The notes under the pieces were generated by a model. That model made no database searches and was not told where the DNA came from. It saw only the letters and a list, made by a program, of their open reading frames with translations. Below are positions 4,909 through 13,968 of a stretch of DNA of 16,063 nt, in pieces. Positions within the stretch are counted from its first letter, which is position 1. The number at the start of each line of letters is the position of its first letter. The translations under genes and the position numbers were made by a program. The stretch is from Desulfuromonadales bacterium C00003107 (GTDB taxonomy: Bacteria > Desulfobacterota > Desulfuromonadia > Desulfuromonadales > Syntrophotaleaceae): positions 1 through 16,063 of the forward strand of contig MAXT01000079.1 of NCBI GenBank assembly GCA_001751225.1, read 5' to 3'.

Positions 4909-7467
4909 ATGAGTAACGATATTTCTTCTGAACAGGCTGAAATCATAAACGAATTTCTCCAGGAAAGCCGGGATATGCTGGACAACCTGGAGCCGACTAT
5001 TATCGAGCTGGGACAGAGCTGTCAAAATGTCGACTGTTGGCAGGCCATGTCCTGCGGCAATGAAGACTGTTCGCGACACAATCAAAAAATTGACCATCCC
5101 TGCTGGTTGCACACTGGCTTTTTGGAAGAAGGCAAGAAAAGTTGTATTCATTGCTCGTCGGCTGAAGATTGCCGCTCCTGCGAGGTGTTTAAGTCGATAA
5201 ACGGCAGTGGCGAGACCATGAACGCTATTTTTCGTTTGTTCCATTCGATGAAAGGTAGTGCTGGTTTTCTTGAACTCGATAACATCTCGCGGGTTGCTCA
5301 CCACGCGGAGAGTTTACTGGATTTGATCCGCGCCGGTAAGGTTAAGATGCAGCCCGAGCATGTCAGCCATCTGTGCAAGGCTTGCGATTTCTCCCGGGAG
5401 GCGATGGAGGCGGTCGAAGCCGATCTTAATGATCATGCCATGGCGGAGGCTGCCGACGCCATTGCCGCCAACCTGGAACTGGCAGCTAGTGAAGCGCTCG
5501 CCATGGCCGCAACGGAACCGGCAGTAGCTGTAGAGACAGTGGCACCGCCGGAGCCCGATGCTGAGCTCTCTGCCGAGGACGAGCTGGCCATGTTGATCGG
5601 TCCTGAGATGGTGGAGAAGTTTGTTCAGGAAGCCGATGAGTTGTTGCAGAATGTTGAAGAGGGCTTGCTGGCCTGGAATGAAGCACCTCTTGATGAAGAG
5701 GCCATGGGGGCCCTGTTCCGTAGCGCCCATAGTTTCAAGGGCAATTGTGGCTTTTTTGGTTACCGGCACATGGAGCAACTCAGCCATCAGATCGAAACAG
5801 TGCTTGACTTGGTTAAGAGTGGGGGCACTTTGCACGGTGAGGCGCCGGCAGATTGTTTGCTGGAATGTCTCGATTTCTTACGCGCTGCCGTTGCCGACAT
5901 TTCTCAGGGTGGGCGCGGTGAGATCGATGAACTGGACGTTGAGCTGGCTAAGCTTGGAGCGTTAATAACTGGTGATGCCCCAGTGGTTGAGGAAAAGGAA
6001 GCCCCGTTGCTTGGGCAGATTCTTGTTGAGCAGGGTGTTGTCGACGAGGACACGGTAGATCAGGCGCTTCAGGCGCAGGGAAAACCCCTGGGAGAAATAC
6101 TGGTCGAAAAGGGGATCGCCTCAGAAAAAGAGGTGCGCGAAGCTCTCGAGTCTCAGACCAAGCCCTTAGGGCAAGTACTAGTCGATACGGGCAAGGCCGA
6201 AGCCAAAGCGGTGGAAGACGCCTTGAAGATTCAACAGAAGGCCGCTCCCCAAAAGGCGGCTAAGCCCAAACAGAGCGCGGTCGTACGCCAGGATATTCGA
6301 GTCGATCTGAGCAAATTGGATGACCTGATCAACCTTATCGGCGAAATGGTTATCGCCGAAAATATGCTGGTGCGTAGCCCTGACCTTGAGGGCTTAGAAT
6401 TGGACAATTTCGGCAAGGCTTCCCAGCACCTGAGCAAGATCGTGCGTGATTTGCAGGAAATGGCCATGATTATCCGCATGATCCCGGTTTCCGGCCTGTT
6501 CCGGCGTATGATCCGCCTGGTACACGATCTGTCGGTTAAGTCAGGCAAGAAAGTTGATCTGCAACTCTCCGGTCAGGAAACCGAAGTCGATAAGACTGTC
6601 ATTGAACAGATTTCAGACCCGCTGGTGCATCTGTTGCGCAACTCCTTGGATCACGGTCTGGAAACACCGGATGAGCGTGTAGCTGCCGGCAAGCCTGAAA
6701 AAGGAGTGGTTAAGCTTTCGGCTATGCACCAAGAAGGGGAAGTCTGGATCCTTGTTGAGGATGACGGTCGCGGTCTGAATCGGGAGAAGATCCTGAAAAA
6801 GGCTGTCAGCAAGGGGTTGGTTGCCGGTGACGGCTCCCAATTGAGCGATAAAGAGGTTTTTAACATGATTTTCCAGGCCGGTTTTTCAACGGCTGAAAAG
6901 ATTACCGATGTCTCCGGTCGCGGAGTCGGTATGGATGTCGTCAAGCAGAACTTGGAAAAAATTAAGGGTAAGATCGAGGTGACCAGCAAGCTGGGCCAGG
7001 GCACTCGTATCACCCTGCGTATTCCTTTGACCCTGGCAATTATCGACGGCATGCTGGTACGGGTCGGAGAAACCAAATGCATCCTGCCGCTGCTGTCTAT
7101 TCGTGAGATCTTTCGACCGACTCCCGATACGATTACGGTCATGCCGGACGGCTTGGAGCTGGTGCGTGTCCGGGATTGCTTCTATCCGGTAAAACATTTA
7201 TACAAAATTTTGCAGGACAAGCCTGATTCAGAACAGGTCGTTGATGGGGTGCTGGTGGTTCTTGAACATCAGGACAATACTATCTGCCTGCTGGTCGATG
7301 AAATCGTCGGTCAACAACAAACGGTCATTAAAGGTCTAACCGAATATATCGGTAATGTTGGGGTTGCTTCGGGCTGTACCATTCTTGGTAACGGTGAAGT
7401 TTGCTTGATCCTGGATGTTGGCCACCTTACCGAAGGGGCAGGGAGAGGTCGCCAGTTGCCAGCATAG
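4909..7467 (+). CDS. cheA: Chemotaxis histidine kinase CheA with two Hpt domains, a Cys-rich insert and linker repeats
   Basis: CheA takes signals from receptors and phosphorylates CheY and CheB. The 852-residue chain has: Hpt1 (about 8-170, phospho-His H112 in FHSMKGSAGF), interrupted at 38-92 by nine cysteines with two Cys-Trp pairs (C43-W44, C65-W66); an Ala/Pro/Glu-rich linker; Hpt2 (about 222-348, H274 in SAHSFKGNCGFFG); three 26-residue repeats (about 366-443); the dimerisation domain (about 460-530); the ATPase domain (N box HLLRNSLDHGLE 574-585, G1 DDGRGL 618-623, G2 GRGVGMDVV 670-678); and a CheW-like P5 domain (about 705-840). The frame is open from an ATG at 4837, but ATG 4909 is chosen because GAGAGGGA precedes it and the Hpt fold begins just after it. 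It is the first gene of the chemotaxis operon. Confidence 0.97.
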   Translation: MSNDISSEQAEIINEFLQESRDMLDNLEPTIIELGQSCQNVDCWQAMSCGNEDCSRHNQKIDHPCWLHTGFLEEGKKSCIHCSSAEDCRSCEVFKSINGSGETMNAIFRLFHSMKGSAGFLELDNISRVAHHAESLLDLIRAGKVKMQPEHVSHLCKACDFSREAMEAVEADLNDHAMAEAADAIAANLELAASEALAMAATEPAVAVETVAPPEPDAELSAEDELAMLIGPEMVEKFVQEADELLQNVEEGLLAWNEAPLDEEAMGALFRSAHSFKGNCGFFGYRHMEQLSHQIETVLDLVKSGGTLHGEAPADCLLECLDFLRAAVADISQGGRGEIDELDVELAKLGALITGDAPVVEEKEAPLLGQILVEQGVVDEDTVDQALQAQGKPLGEILVEKGIASEKEVREALESQTKPLGQVLVDTGKAEAKAVEDALKIQQKAAPQKAAKPKQSAVVRQDIRVDLSKLDDLINLIGEMVIAENMLVRSPDLEGLELDNFGKASQHLSKIVRDLQEMAMIIRMIPVSGLFRRMIRLVHDLSVKSGKKVDLQLSGQETEVDKTVIEQISDPLVHLLRNSLDHGLETPDERVAAGKPEKGVVKLSAMHQEGEVWILVEDDGRGLNREKILKKAVSKGLVAGDGSQLSDKEVFNMIFQAGFSTAEKITDVSGRGVGMDVVKQNLEKIKGKIEVTSKLGQGTRITLRIPLTLAIIDGMLVRVGETKCILPLLSIREIFRPTPDTITVMPDGLELVRVRDCFYPVKHLYKILQDKPDSEQVVDGVLVVLEHQDNTICLLVDEIVGQQQTVIKGLTEYIGNVGVASGCTILGNGEVCLILDVGHLTEGAGRGRQLPA

Positions 7468-12795: not shown

Positions 12796-13968
12796 ATGGA
12801 AATAGATCCGATCATTACAGATGTTCTCGAGGAAGTGGGCAGCAAGGTCGCAGCGGGTCTAGGTGGCATGCTCGGTTGCGAATTTGACTTGCCGGCACCA
12901 ACCACCATTCTGCTATCCAAAAAGGAATTTTTCGCCCAGACTCGCAAAAAGCAGGTCATGACACGCATGGTCGTCAGTGGTGACCATGAAGGCGACATGT
13001 TTGTTTTTTGTCGGCTCAAGGATGCTGTTCAACTGAGTGGTACCCTCATTATGCTGCCGCAGGGCGAACTTGAGGAGCGGGTCAAAAAGGAGATTTTCGG
13101 CGAGGAGGAGATTGATTCCTTCGGCGAACTTGCCAATATTATCTCCGGCGATCTGTGCTCGGCTTTTGAAGAGCTCTATCCGGAGAAACTTCATTTCAAA
13201 AAAACCGATCTGGAAGCCCTCGTGCCCTCCAAGGTCAAGGTGGATGCACCGGAACCGTTTCCGCCGGGTCTGTATCTCAAAGCAGCGTACCCTGTTACCC
13301 TCGATGGCAAGGCACTGGATGAGCTTGTGTTTCTCTTTCCGGCGGCGCTGCTTGGGATAACGGTTCCTGAAGCTCTGGATCTCGAAACAGAGACCAGTGA
13401 TGAGACGTCGGTGGCTTCCGGGCGCTTGGTCAACCCGGAAGAAGCTGCGGCTTTGTTGGGCGAACTTTCGCCGGACAGTAGCTCTGCGGCCGGCGTTGCA
13501 GTGGAGACGACCTCGACAGCCAGGCCGGTTCAGGCAGGGCAGCCGACCTCCATGGAGGACGAGCCAAACCTAGCAGGAGCAGAACCGGTTATTTTGGTGG
13601 TTGCTATCGATGGCAATCAGGGCCAGACCATCAATGCCATGATTAATGAGCATGGCTACAATGCCACCCTGGTCGACCGTAAGGAAAACTTTAAGGATCT
13701 GTCGAAGACGCTGAGGGGTAGTGTAAAAGGGCTGGTTCTGGTTATGGACGAGATCGGTGAGCAGAGTTTTTCTGTTGCCATTAAGGTTCGTACTGCCTTT
13801 GGTGAGTCGGTACCCCTGATGGCAGCCGGCAGCCAGTGGACTCGAAGCAAGGTATTGCAGGCCGTGAAATACGGGGTTTGCGACATCCTGGTGACTCCGG
13901 CTAGCGCTGAAGAAGTCCTGGAAAAGGTCGAAGCCCATTTTAAATCGATGCAGAATATCGCGGTCTGA
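12796..13968 (+). CDS. CheX/CheC-like domain fused to a degenerate receiver domain
   Basis: The 390-residue protein has two parts. Residues 1-190 resemble CheX/CheC/FliN-type phosphatase domains, with E111-L-A-N114 in FGELANIISGDL matching the E-x-x-N active motif. After a low-complexity linker (about 195-262), residues 264-385 look like a receiver (VILVVAID, GLVLVMDEI, KYGVCDILVTP). D318 is at or near the acceptor position, but the conserved Lys is replaced by T367 and the switch Thr region reads LMAAGS, so normal phosphorylation signalling is doubtful. The linker contains LVNPEEAAALLGEL (211-224), similar to the CheY-binding peptide of FliM/FliN-type proteins (inference). The ribosome site is weak. 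Confidence 0.85.
   Translation: MEIDPIITDVLEEVGSKVAAGLGGMLGCEFDLPAPTTILLSKKEFFAQTRKKQVMTRMVVSGDHEGDMFVFCRLKDAVQLSGTLIMLPQGELEERVKKEIFGEEEIDSFGELANIISGDLCSAFEELYPEKLHFKKTDLEALVPSKVKVDAPEPFPPGLYLKAAYPVTLDGKALDELVFLFPAALLGITVPEALDLETETSDETSVASGRLVNPEEAAALLGELSPDSSSAAGVAVETTSTARPVQAGQPTSMEDEPNLAGAEPVILVVAIDGNQGQTINAMINEHGYNATLVDRKENFKDLSKTLRGSVKGLVLVMDEIGEQSFSVAIKVRTAFGESVPLMAAGSQWTRSKVLQAVKYGVCDILVTPASAEEVLEKVEAHFKSMQNIAV

Follow-up and report, generated by a model that had tools for sequence, protein, structure and literature searches.

A two-CW-like cysteine module inside the first phosphotransfer domain of a Desulfuromonadales CheA, and its possible role as a metal-centred input

The P1 (Hpt) domain of the chemotaxis kinase CheA is a helical bundle in which a His on the second helix engages both the ATPase domain and response regulators, and inputs to chemotaxis are usually taken to enter through receptors. 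In CheA of the E. coli/Salmonella type, this bundle presumably has a short loop where the kinase described here carries a Cys-rich module; by sequence, the latter resembles that type in the region of the phospho-His helix and in the helices that follow. The module itself resembles the two-CW domain (NCBIfam NF045718), whose model description states no function. The small subunit of 4-hydroxyphenylacetate decarboxylase (HPAD), reported to carry two [4Fe-4S] clusters, and other HiPIP-like [4Fe-4S] subunits of glycyl radical enzymes are likewise small and Cys-rich and share a similar C...C-x8-C-x2-C-x2-F run, but they show no significant sequence relation to the module and belong to a different host system. 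Literature searches on the two-CW domain or on a Cys-rich insert in CheA found no description, and the word "cysteine" does not occur in the main text of a survey of Geobacter chemotaxis (PMC2577667); a CheA with a two-CW-type module inside its first Hpt domain (Hpt1) looks unusual as an architecture and was not found described in the literature searched. A conserved sensory-type module at this place would amount to a direct input on the central kinase, and would tie an uncharacterised domain to a protein for which in vitro assays are standard, such that its chemistry could be read through phosphotransfer.

The module was found in a stretch of 16,063 nucleotides from Desulfuromonadales bacterium C00003107 (contig MAXT01000079.1), hereafter the window. 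As judged from its open reading frames (ORFs) and a Pfam scan of selected ones, the window is a flagellar and chemotaxis region, in which the minus strand carries genes for FliE and rod proteins. These are followed on the plus strand by genes for CheA, CheR, CheB, CheD, an HDOD protein and a CheX-like protein; a sigma-54 activator is encoded on the minus strand. Downstream in the che cluster, 12796-13968 encodes a 390-aa protein for which Pfam gave no match (E up to 0.001). The product of 4909-7467 is a CheA chemotaxis kinase, with the Pfam Hpt, H-kinase_dim, HATPase_c and CheW families all above their cut-offs. Among the named loci, the nearest CheA core (98% identical) comes from a Desulfuromonadaceae metagenome assembly, and one close full-length relative carries the label Syntrophotaleaceae; a cultured relative, Geothermobacter hydrogeniphilus (L064), also bears the insert described below. 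The features of the gene are as follows, where the limits of the two Hpt1 helices are those that we presume from the P1 structure.

4909-7467, plus strand: cheA, ATG start, 852 aa (ORF call and Pfam), in the order Hpt1 (interrupted), Hpt2, MshEN-like repeats, dimerisation, ATPase and CheW-like domains
4930-5013, plus strand: first helix of Hpt1/P1, about residues 8-35, aligned with CheAs that lack the insert
5020-5193, plus strand: two-CW-like cysteine module, residues 38-95, about 58 residues
5035-5190, plus strand: seven-Cys core of the insert, C43 to F94
5035-5040, plus strand: first CW motif, C43-W44, invariant in the 116 insert-bearing rows of the CheA alignment
5101-5106, plus strand: second CW motif, C65-W66, invariant in the same 116 rows
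5170-5190, plus strand: C88-x2-C91-x2-F94, with the sole conserved C-x2-C of the module
5209-5283, plus strand: phospho-His helix of Hpt1, about residues 101-125, with H112 at 5242-5244
5374-5385, plus strand: C156-x2-C159, near the end of Hpt1 and not tied to the insert
5605-5886, plus strand: second Hpt domain, residues 233-326, with H274 and no insert (Pfam and motif position)
6004-6231, plus strand: three MshEN-like repeats, LG-x2-[IV]-[LV]-x2-G, about residues 366-441

The initial annotation had described an Hpt1 domain interrupted by a nine-Cys insert, and the codons bear this out: C38, C43, C49, C54, C65, C79, C82, C88 and C91, nine of the 19 Cys residues of the whole CheA, occupy the positions that it gave, as do H112, C156 and C159. 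It placed the insert at 5020-5190, which is the right location; the insert runs on to about residue 95, at base 5193. The insert sits in the Hpt1 loop that leads from the first helix to the phospho-His helix, and residues 101-174 align to CheA P1 chains of the PDB, whose matches start only after the insert. The residues H112, K115, H131 and E134 are intact in the CheA alignment (H112 in all 121 rows), which leads us to expect that Hpt1 still serves as a substrate.

That alignment comprises the window protein and the best 120 of 359 proteins found, which were ranked by likeness to the insert-bearing query, and the share of insert-bearing CheAs in it (116 of 121 rows, with five lacking the insert) is biased upward by this choice, as is that in a second sample of the best 80 of 176 described below. 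C43, C49, C54, C65, C88, C91 and both Trp residues are kept in 116/116 insert-bearing rows and C79 in 115, all seven Cys occurring together in 115; the possibility, raised with the initial annotation, that the cysteines are not conserved in close homologues thus does not hold for seven of the nine. The other two are variable: C38 is Cys in 103/121 rows and C82 in only 7/121, and the modules of proteins other than CheA have no Cys aligned to C38, so that a single conserved site of nine Cys is rejected. With C82 so rarely a Cys, the C-x-x-C-x5-C-x-x-C ending pointed out in that annotation is not the conserved one; the conserved element is C79-x8-C88-x2-C91-x2-F, in which F94 is kept in 96% of insert-bearing rows. 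Outside the seven Cys, positions of the insert have a mean top frequency of 0.56 against 0.77-0.78 in the flanking parts of P1, which places the constraint in the insert on the cysteines, along with W44, W66, L67, G70, G75 and a few others. Its length is almost fixed, with an aligned piece of 64 aa in 113/116. The two-CW cysteine pattern arose in 0/20,000 shuffles of the whole protein and in 52/200,000 shuffles of the insert alone. The CheA insert is a real and conserved element, and cysteines are its most constrained residues. From these sequences, two further alignments were made: A1, of insert-bearing CheAs, which excluded 7/120 (P0015, P0108 and the insert-less P0116-P0120), and A2, of the inserts of 37 of 49 representatives.

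A six-frame search with NF045718 misses the window's own CheA and cannot be used to count CheA inserts, for which reason the A2 profile was used instead. Run against 277 genomes of the class, it matched 58 genomes at an E limit of 0.01, and the matches form two groups, one of 33 places (33 genomes) at E 5e-25 or better and one of 34 places at 4.6e-9 or weaker. Thirty of the 33 strong places were examined as loci, namely the window and 29 others, and all 29 of the latter lie in CheA-like ORFs. All 14 listed genomes of the window's own family belong to this strong group; the genome that contains the window is an incomplete assembly, and in it this CheA alone matches. A scan of species genomes (best 80 of 176) supplied the named loci, 25 with the insert and 55 without a match. 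That 55 of 80 such loci have a CheA that is otherwise alike would suit a neutral spacer, a tolerated decoration with no function, yet the near-fixed length of the insert, its presence in the 14 listed family genomes, and the retention of seven Cys amid variable surroundings make this explanation very improbable. CheA can nonetheless do without the insert, which is absent from many related CheAs. In the closest of these, a short loop joins the same helices and is nearly always free of Cys, with one Cys each in L078 and P0119. On a kinase-core tree of 62 rows, 23 with the insert, which excluded the insert itself from the data and omitted 19/80 named loci (seven with a weak or short core, and L119-L130), the insert label requires four changes, a count as low being reached in 0/500 shuffles; the strongly supported branches force only one change. 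One old gain followed by some losses would fit this history, as read from a quick tree with long branches and a count that is blind to gain versus loss.

The resemblance to the two-CW family that the initial annotation had noticed is supported by profile comparison. NF045718 matches the window insert at E 1.9e-4 and 21.7 bits as a 65-aa piece, and at 17.8 and 20.9 bits as 199-aa and 64-aa pieces, all below its curated cut-off of 35 bits, and it matches 37/37 diverse CheA inserts (E up to 10; best 1.5e-6). Other families give nothing consistent on these 37 inserts, at most 1/37 for any NCBIfam and at most 2/37 for any Pfam family. Both Cys-Trp motifs of the family are present, at C43-W44 and C65-W66, as is a C-x2-C near the end, and the seven Cys follow the order of family members that score over the cut-off, with the fifth Cys displaced. 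This order was read from a joint alignment, A4, which takes in stand-alone members of the family and a single GGDEF protein above the cut-off. The insert differs from the family in its length of about 58 rather than about 80 residues, in a shorter stretch from the second to the fourth Cys, in a fifth Cys that comes about six residues later, and in lying inside an Hpt domain. Ferredoxins and zinc ribbons are marked by a C-x2-C-x2-C run or by two C-x2-C knuckles, respectively. Neither a conserved run of this kind nor a conserved pair of C-x2-C motifs is found here, since C88-x2-C91 alone is conserved and C79-x2-C82 is not, and both assignments were rejected.

The weaker group of A2 matches extends the same seven-Cys order to methyl-accepting chemotaxis proteins (MCPs), diguanylate cyclases and kinases. 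Loci were examined for 33 of its 34 places, the remaining one having an internal stop. Pfam, for 10 of 20 weak-group proteins, gave five MCPs, three GGDEF proteins (one with a receiver) and two histidine kinases, and a pattern search located the seven-Cys order in a single ORF at each of 32 loci out of the 33, 32 ORFs in all. By signature, 25 of these 32 ORFs are MCPs (L031, L033-L036, L038-L043, L045, L048 and L151-L162), in which the module was placed in the HAMP connector, 19 by rule and six by eye. Pfam HAMP was seen in three of the five scanned MCPs; the match ends at position 31 of 53, and the Cys module starts within four residues of this point. The sequence after the module (ELxELG) reads as what we take to be the second HAMP helix. 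The MCP modules of Desulfuromonadia and the CheA insert share both their seven-Cys order and their setting, the connection of one helix to the next within a signalling helical bundle. They differ in that the first CW of the MCP modules is usually C[SAG] and the host of these is a receptor rather than the kinase. In the diguanylate cyclases L037 and L050, the seven-Cys module precedes the GGDEF domain and is flanked by apparent helices, and these enzymes are possible redox- or metal-controlled c-di-GMP synthases.

A search of genomes with NF045718 itself returned 21 of 271 genomes, 16 over the cut-off, and mostly short stand-alone proteins; an ORF with the seven-Cys pattern is present in 12 of 20 loci from this search and absent from the other eight. 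In A4, which brings together 23 modules, six Cys and one Trp are invariant, and the seventh Cys, C79 in the kinase, lies at a shifted position in some modules. The rows other than CheA were chosen by their Cys pattern, so that part of the Cys invariance in these rows follows from the choice itself. Nineteen of the 23 modules are matched by NF045718 at E up to 10. A GGDEF protein from L047 reaches 36.5 bits on NF045718, over its cut-off, and is also found by the CheA insert profile, and so bridges both groups; the insert alignment matched none of seven stand-alone candidates at E up to 10. As read from sequence, the seven-Cys module is a mobile signalling module that in CheA has been placed inside the phosphotransfer domain.

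Comparisons with proteins of known structure bear on the cofactor that the cysteines might bind. At E up to 10, the A2 profile matched two PDB entries, a stretch of Pex12 (E 0.078), which we take to be of the RING-type zinc-binding kind, and the HPAD small subunit (E 2.5); the broader A4 profile matched only the latter (E 7.1), and a stand-alone two-CW protein gave no significant PDB match. Two family models each match one of the 23 A4 modules, the LSD1 zinc finger at E 0.035 and the HPAD small subunit (NF033716) at E 0.053, and the tandem CCCH zinc model of Pfam matches 2/37 CheA inserts at E 5.8 or worse. When compared by hhalign to an HPAD small-subunit profile built from 18 of the 19 homologues found, the probabilities were 22% and 3%. 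The A2 score against this family was reached by 0/60 full shuffles and 0/60 shuffles with Cys held in place, and that of A4 by 0/60 and 2/60, respectively. Searched against 10,980 ORFs of the examined loci, the HPAD profile gave 82 hits and ranked two-CW ORFs (24 of the 82) among the highest, but at E 1.3 or worse and mixed with unrelated proteins, and the small-subunit model found a single match across 395 genomes, which lies below the cut-off and has an internal stop. With no match reaching significance, the insert was rejected as a relative of HPAD or of HiPIP-like subunits, and the likeness is kept as a lead only.

These matches leave an iron-sulfur centre as a lead for the cofactor, with zinc close behind. 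Small Cys-rich domains often bind zinc for structural purposes, and one alternative is that the cysteines bind zinc for folding and thereby add a P1 surface for docking to CheY, CheB, the ATPase domain or a receptor, with no sensing at all. A compact fold of this sort is suggested by the conserved W44, P64, W66, L67 and G70 that accompany the Cys, and the Pex12, LSD1 and tandem CCCH matches, weak as they are, are of zinc type; that Pex12 and LSD1 score as well as or better than the iron-sulfur protein at the same level speaks against an iron-sulfur centre. These zinc-type matches are, however, no more significant than the iron-sulfur one, a single conserved C-x2-C does not provide the knuckle pair of a zinc ribbon, and the relatives of the module are located in sensors and HAMP connectors, where signals are modulated. 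A purely structural zinc site is regarded as somewhat unlikely.

The host lineage, a group of anaerobic sediment bacteria, cycles sulfur or metals, a setting that would also suit a metal-free thiol switch, in which pairs of Cys form disulfides or persulfides under oxidants or polysulfide, lock the loop and change phosphotransfer. Such control has a precedent in the kinase SrrB, which is regulated by a redox Cys pair (PMC8199190). Seven conserved Cys at near-fixed spacing, two CW pairs and a Cys order common to many hosts are more than this switch needs, and an odd number would leave one thiol unpaired; it is judged decidedly unlikely. The odd number of conserved Cys, together with a cytoplasmic location in an anaerobic lineage, would favour metal ligation over structural disulfides. 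By analogy, the spacing of the insert, one C-x2-C with scattered Cys, may be likened to the CX2CXnCXnC motif through which MASS-beta binds a [4Fe-4S] cluster (PMC12358834), a point in favour of a metal centre. Against it, seven Cys match no standard cluster count exactly.

Weighing these points, we infer, tentatively and at somewhat short of an even chance, that the two-CW-like module of Hpt1 holds a metal centre and that this centre gates phosphotransfer at H112. The cysteines of the insert would hold the metal centre, most likely an iron-sulfur cluster and zinc in second place, and its state (reduced or oxidised, present or absent) would alter the helix bundle at its end, some 17 residues ahead of H112. 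The altered end would, in turn, change either the phosphorylation of H112 by the kinase domain or the passage of phosphate to CheY or CheB. A module in a loop at one end of the phospho-His helix can plausibly alter docking, and this helix-end site, together with the MCP modules that also join two helices, is what suggests a metal-centred sensor that tunes phosphotransfer. Such an arrangement would supply the kinase with a redox or metal signal from inside the cell, independent of the chemoreceptors and confined to one Hpt domain of the two; the placement of the insert is compatible with a CheA that has its own input on the phosphotransfer domain, as the initial annotation had suggested.

Two Hpt-type motifs are found in 103 of 109 related ORFs, some of which are incomplete. 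The MshEN-like repeats precede the dimerisation domain and score 56.1 bits on NF053729 (cut-off 38), with the best stretch at residues 368-416; where the published RLG motif has its Arg, they have Leu or Pro, which makes binding of c-di-GMP by these repeats uncertain. The occurrence of MshEN together with CheA has been mentioned before (PMC5013675). A wider and unlikely reading is that CheA of this lineage would itself act as a cytoplasmic sensor, with an iron-sulfur module for redox or iron in one Hpt and the MshEN-like repeats ahead of the kinase core, combining receptor, redox and c-di-GMP inputs and biasing which Hpt, and hence which response regulator, receives phosphate.

The additional C-x-x-C that the initial annotation had placed after Hpt1, C156 and C159, is present and lies within P1 itself. 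C156 is Cys in 121/121 aligned rows and C159 in 116/121, and a C-x2-C-D-F motif, counted by eye, occurs in 25/25 named loci with the insert and in 34/55 without it. Since the pair is also found in CheAs that lack the insert, it was excluded as a part of the module. This C-x2-C-D-F near the end of Hpt1, kept with and without the insert, may represent a second thiol or metal site.
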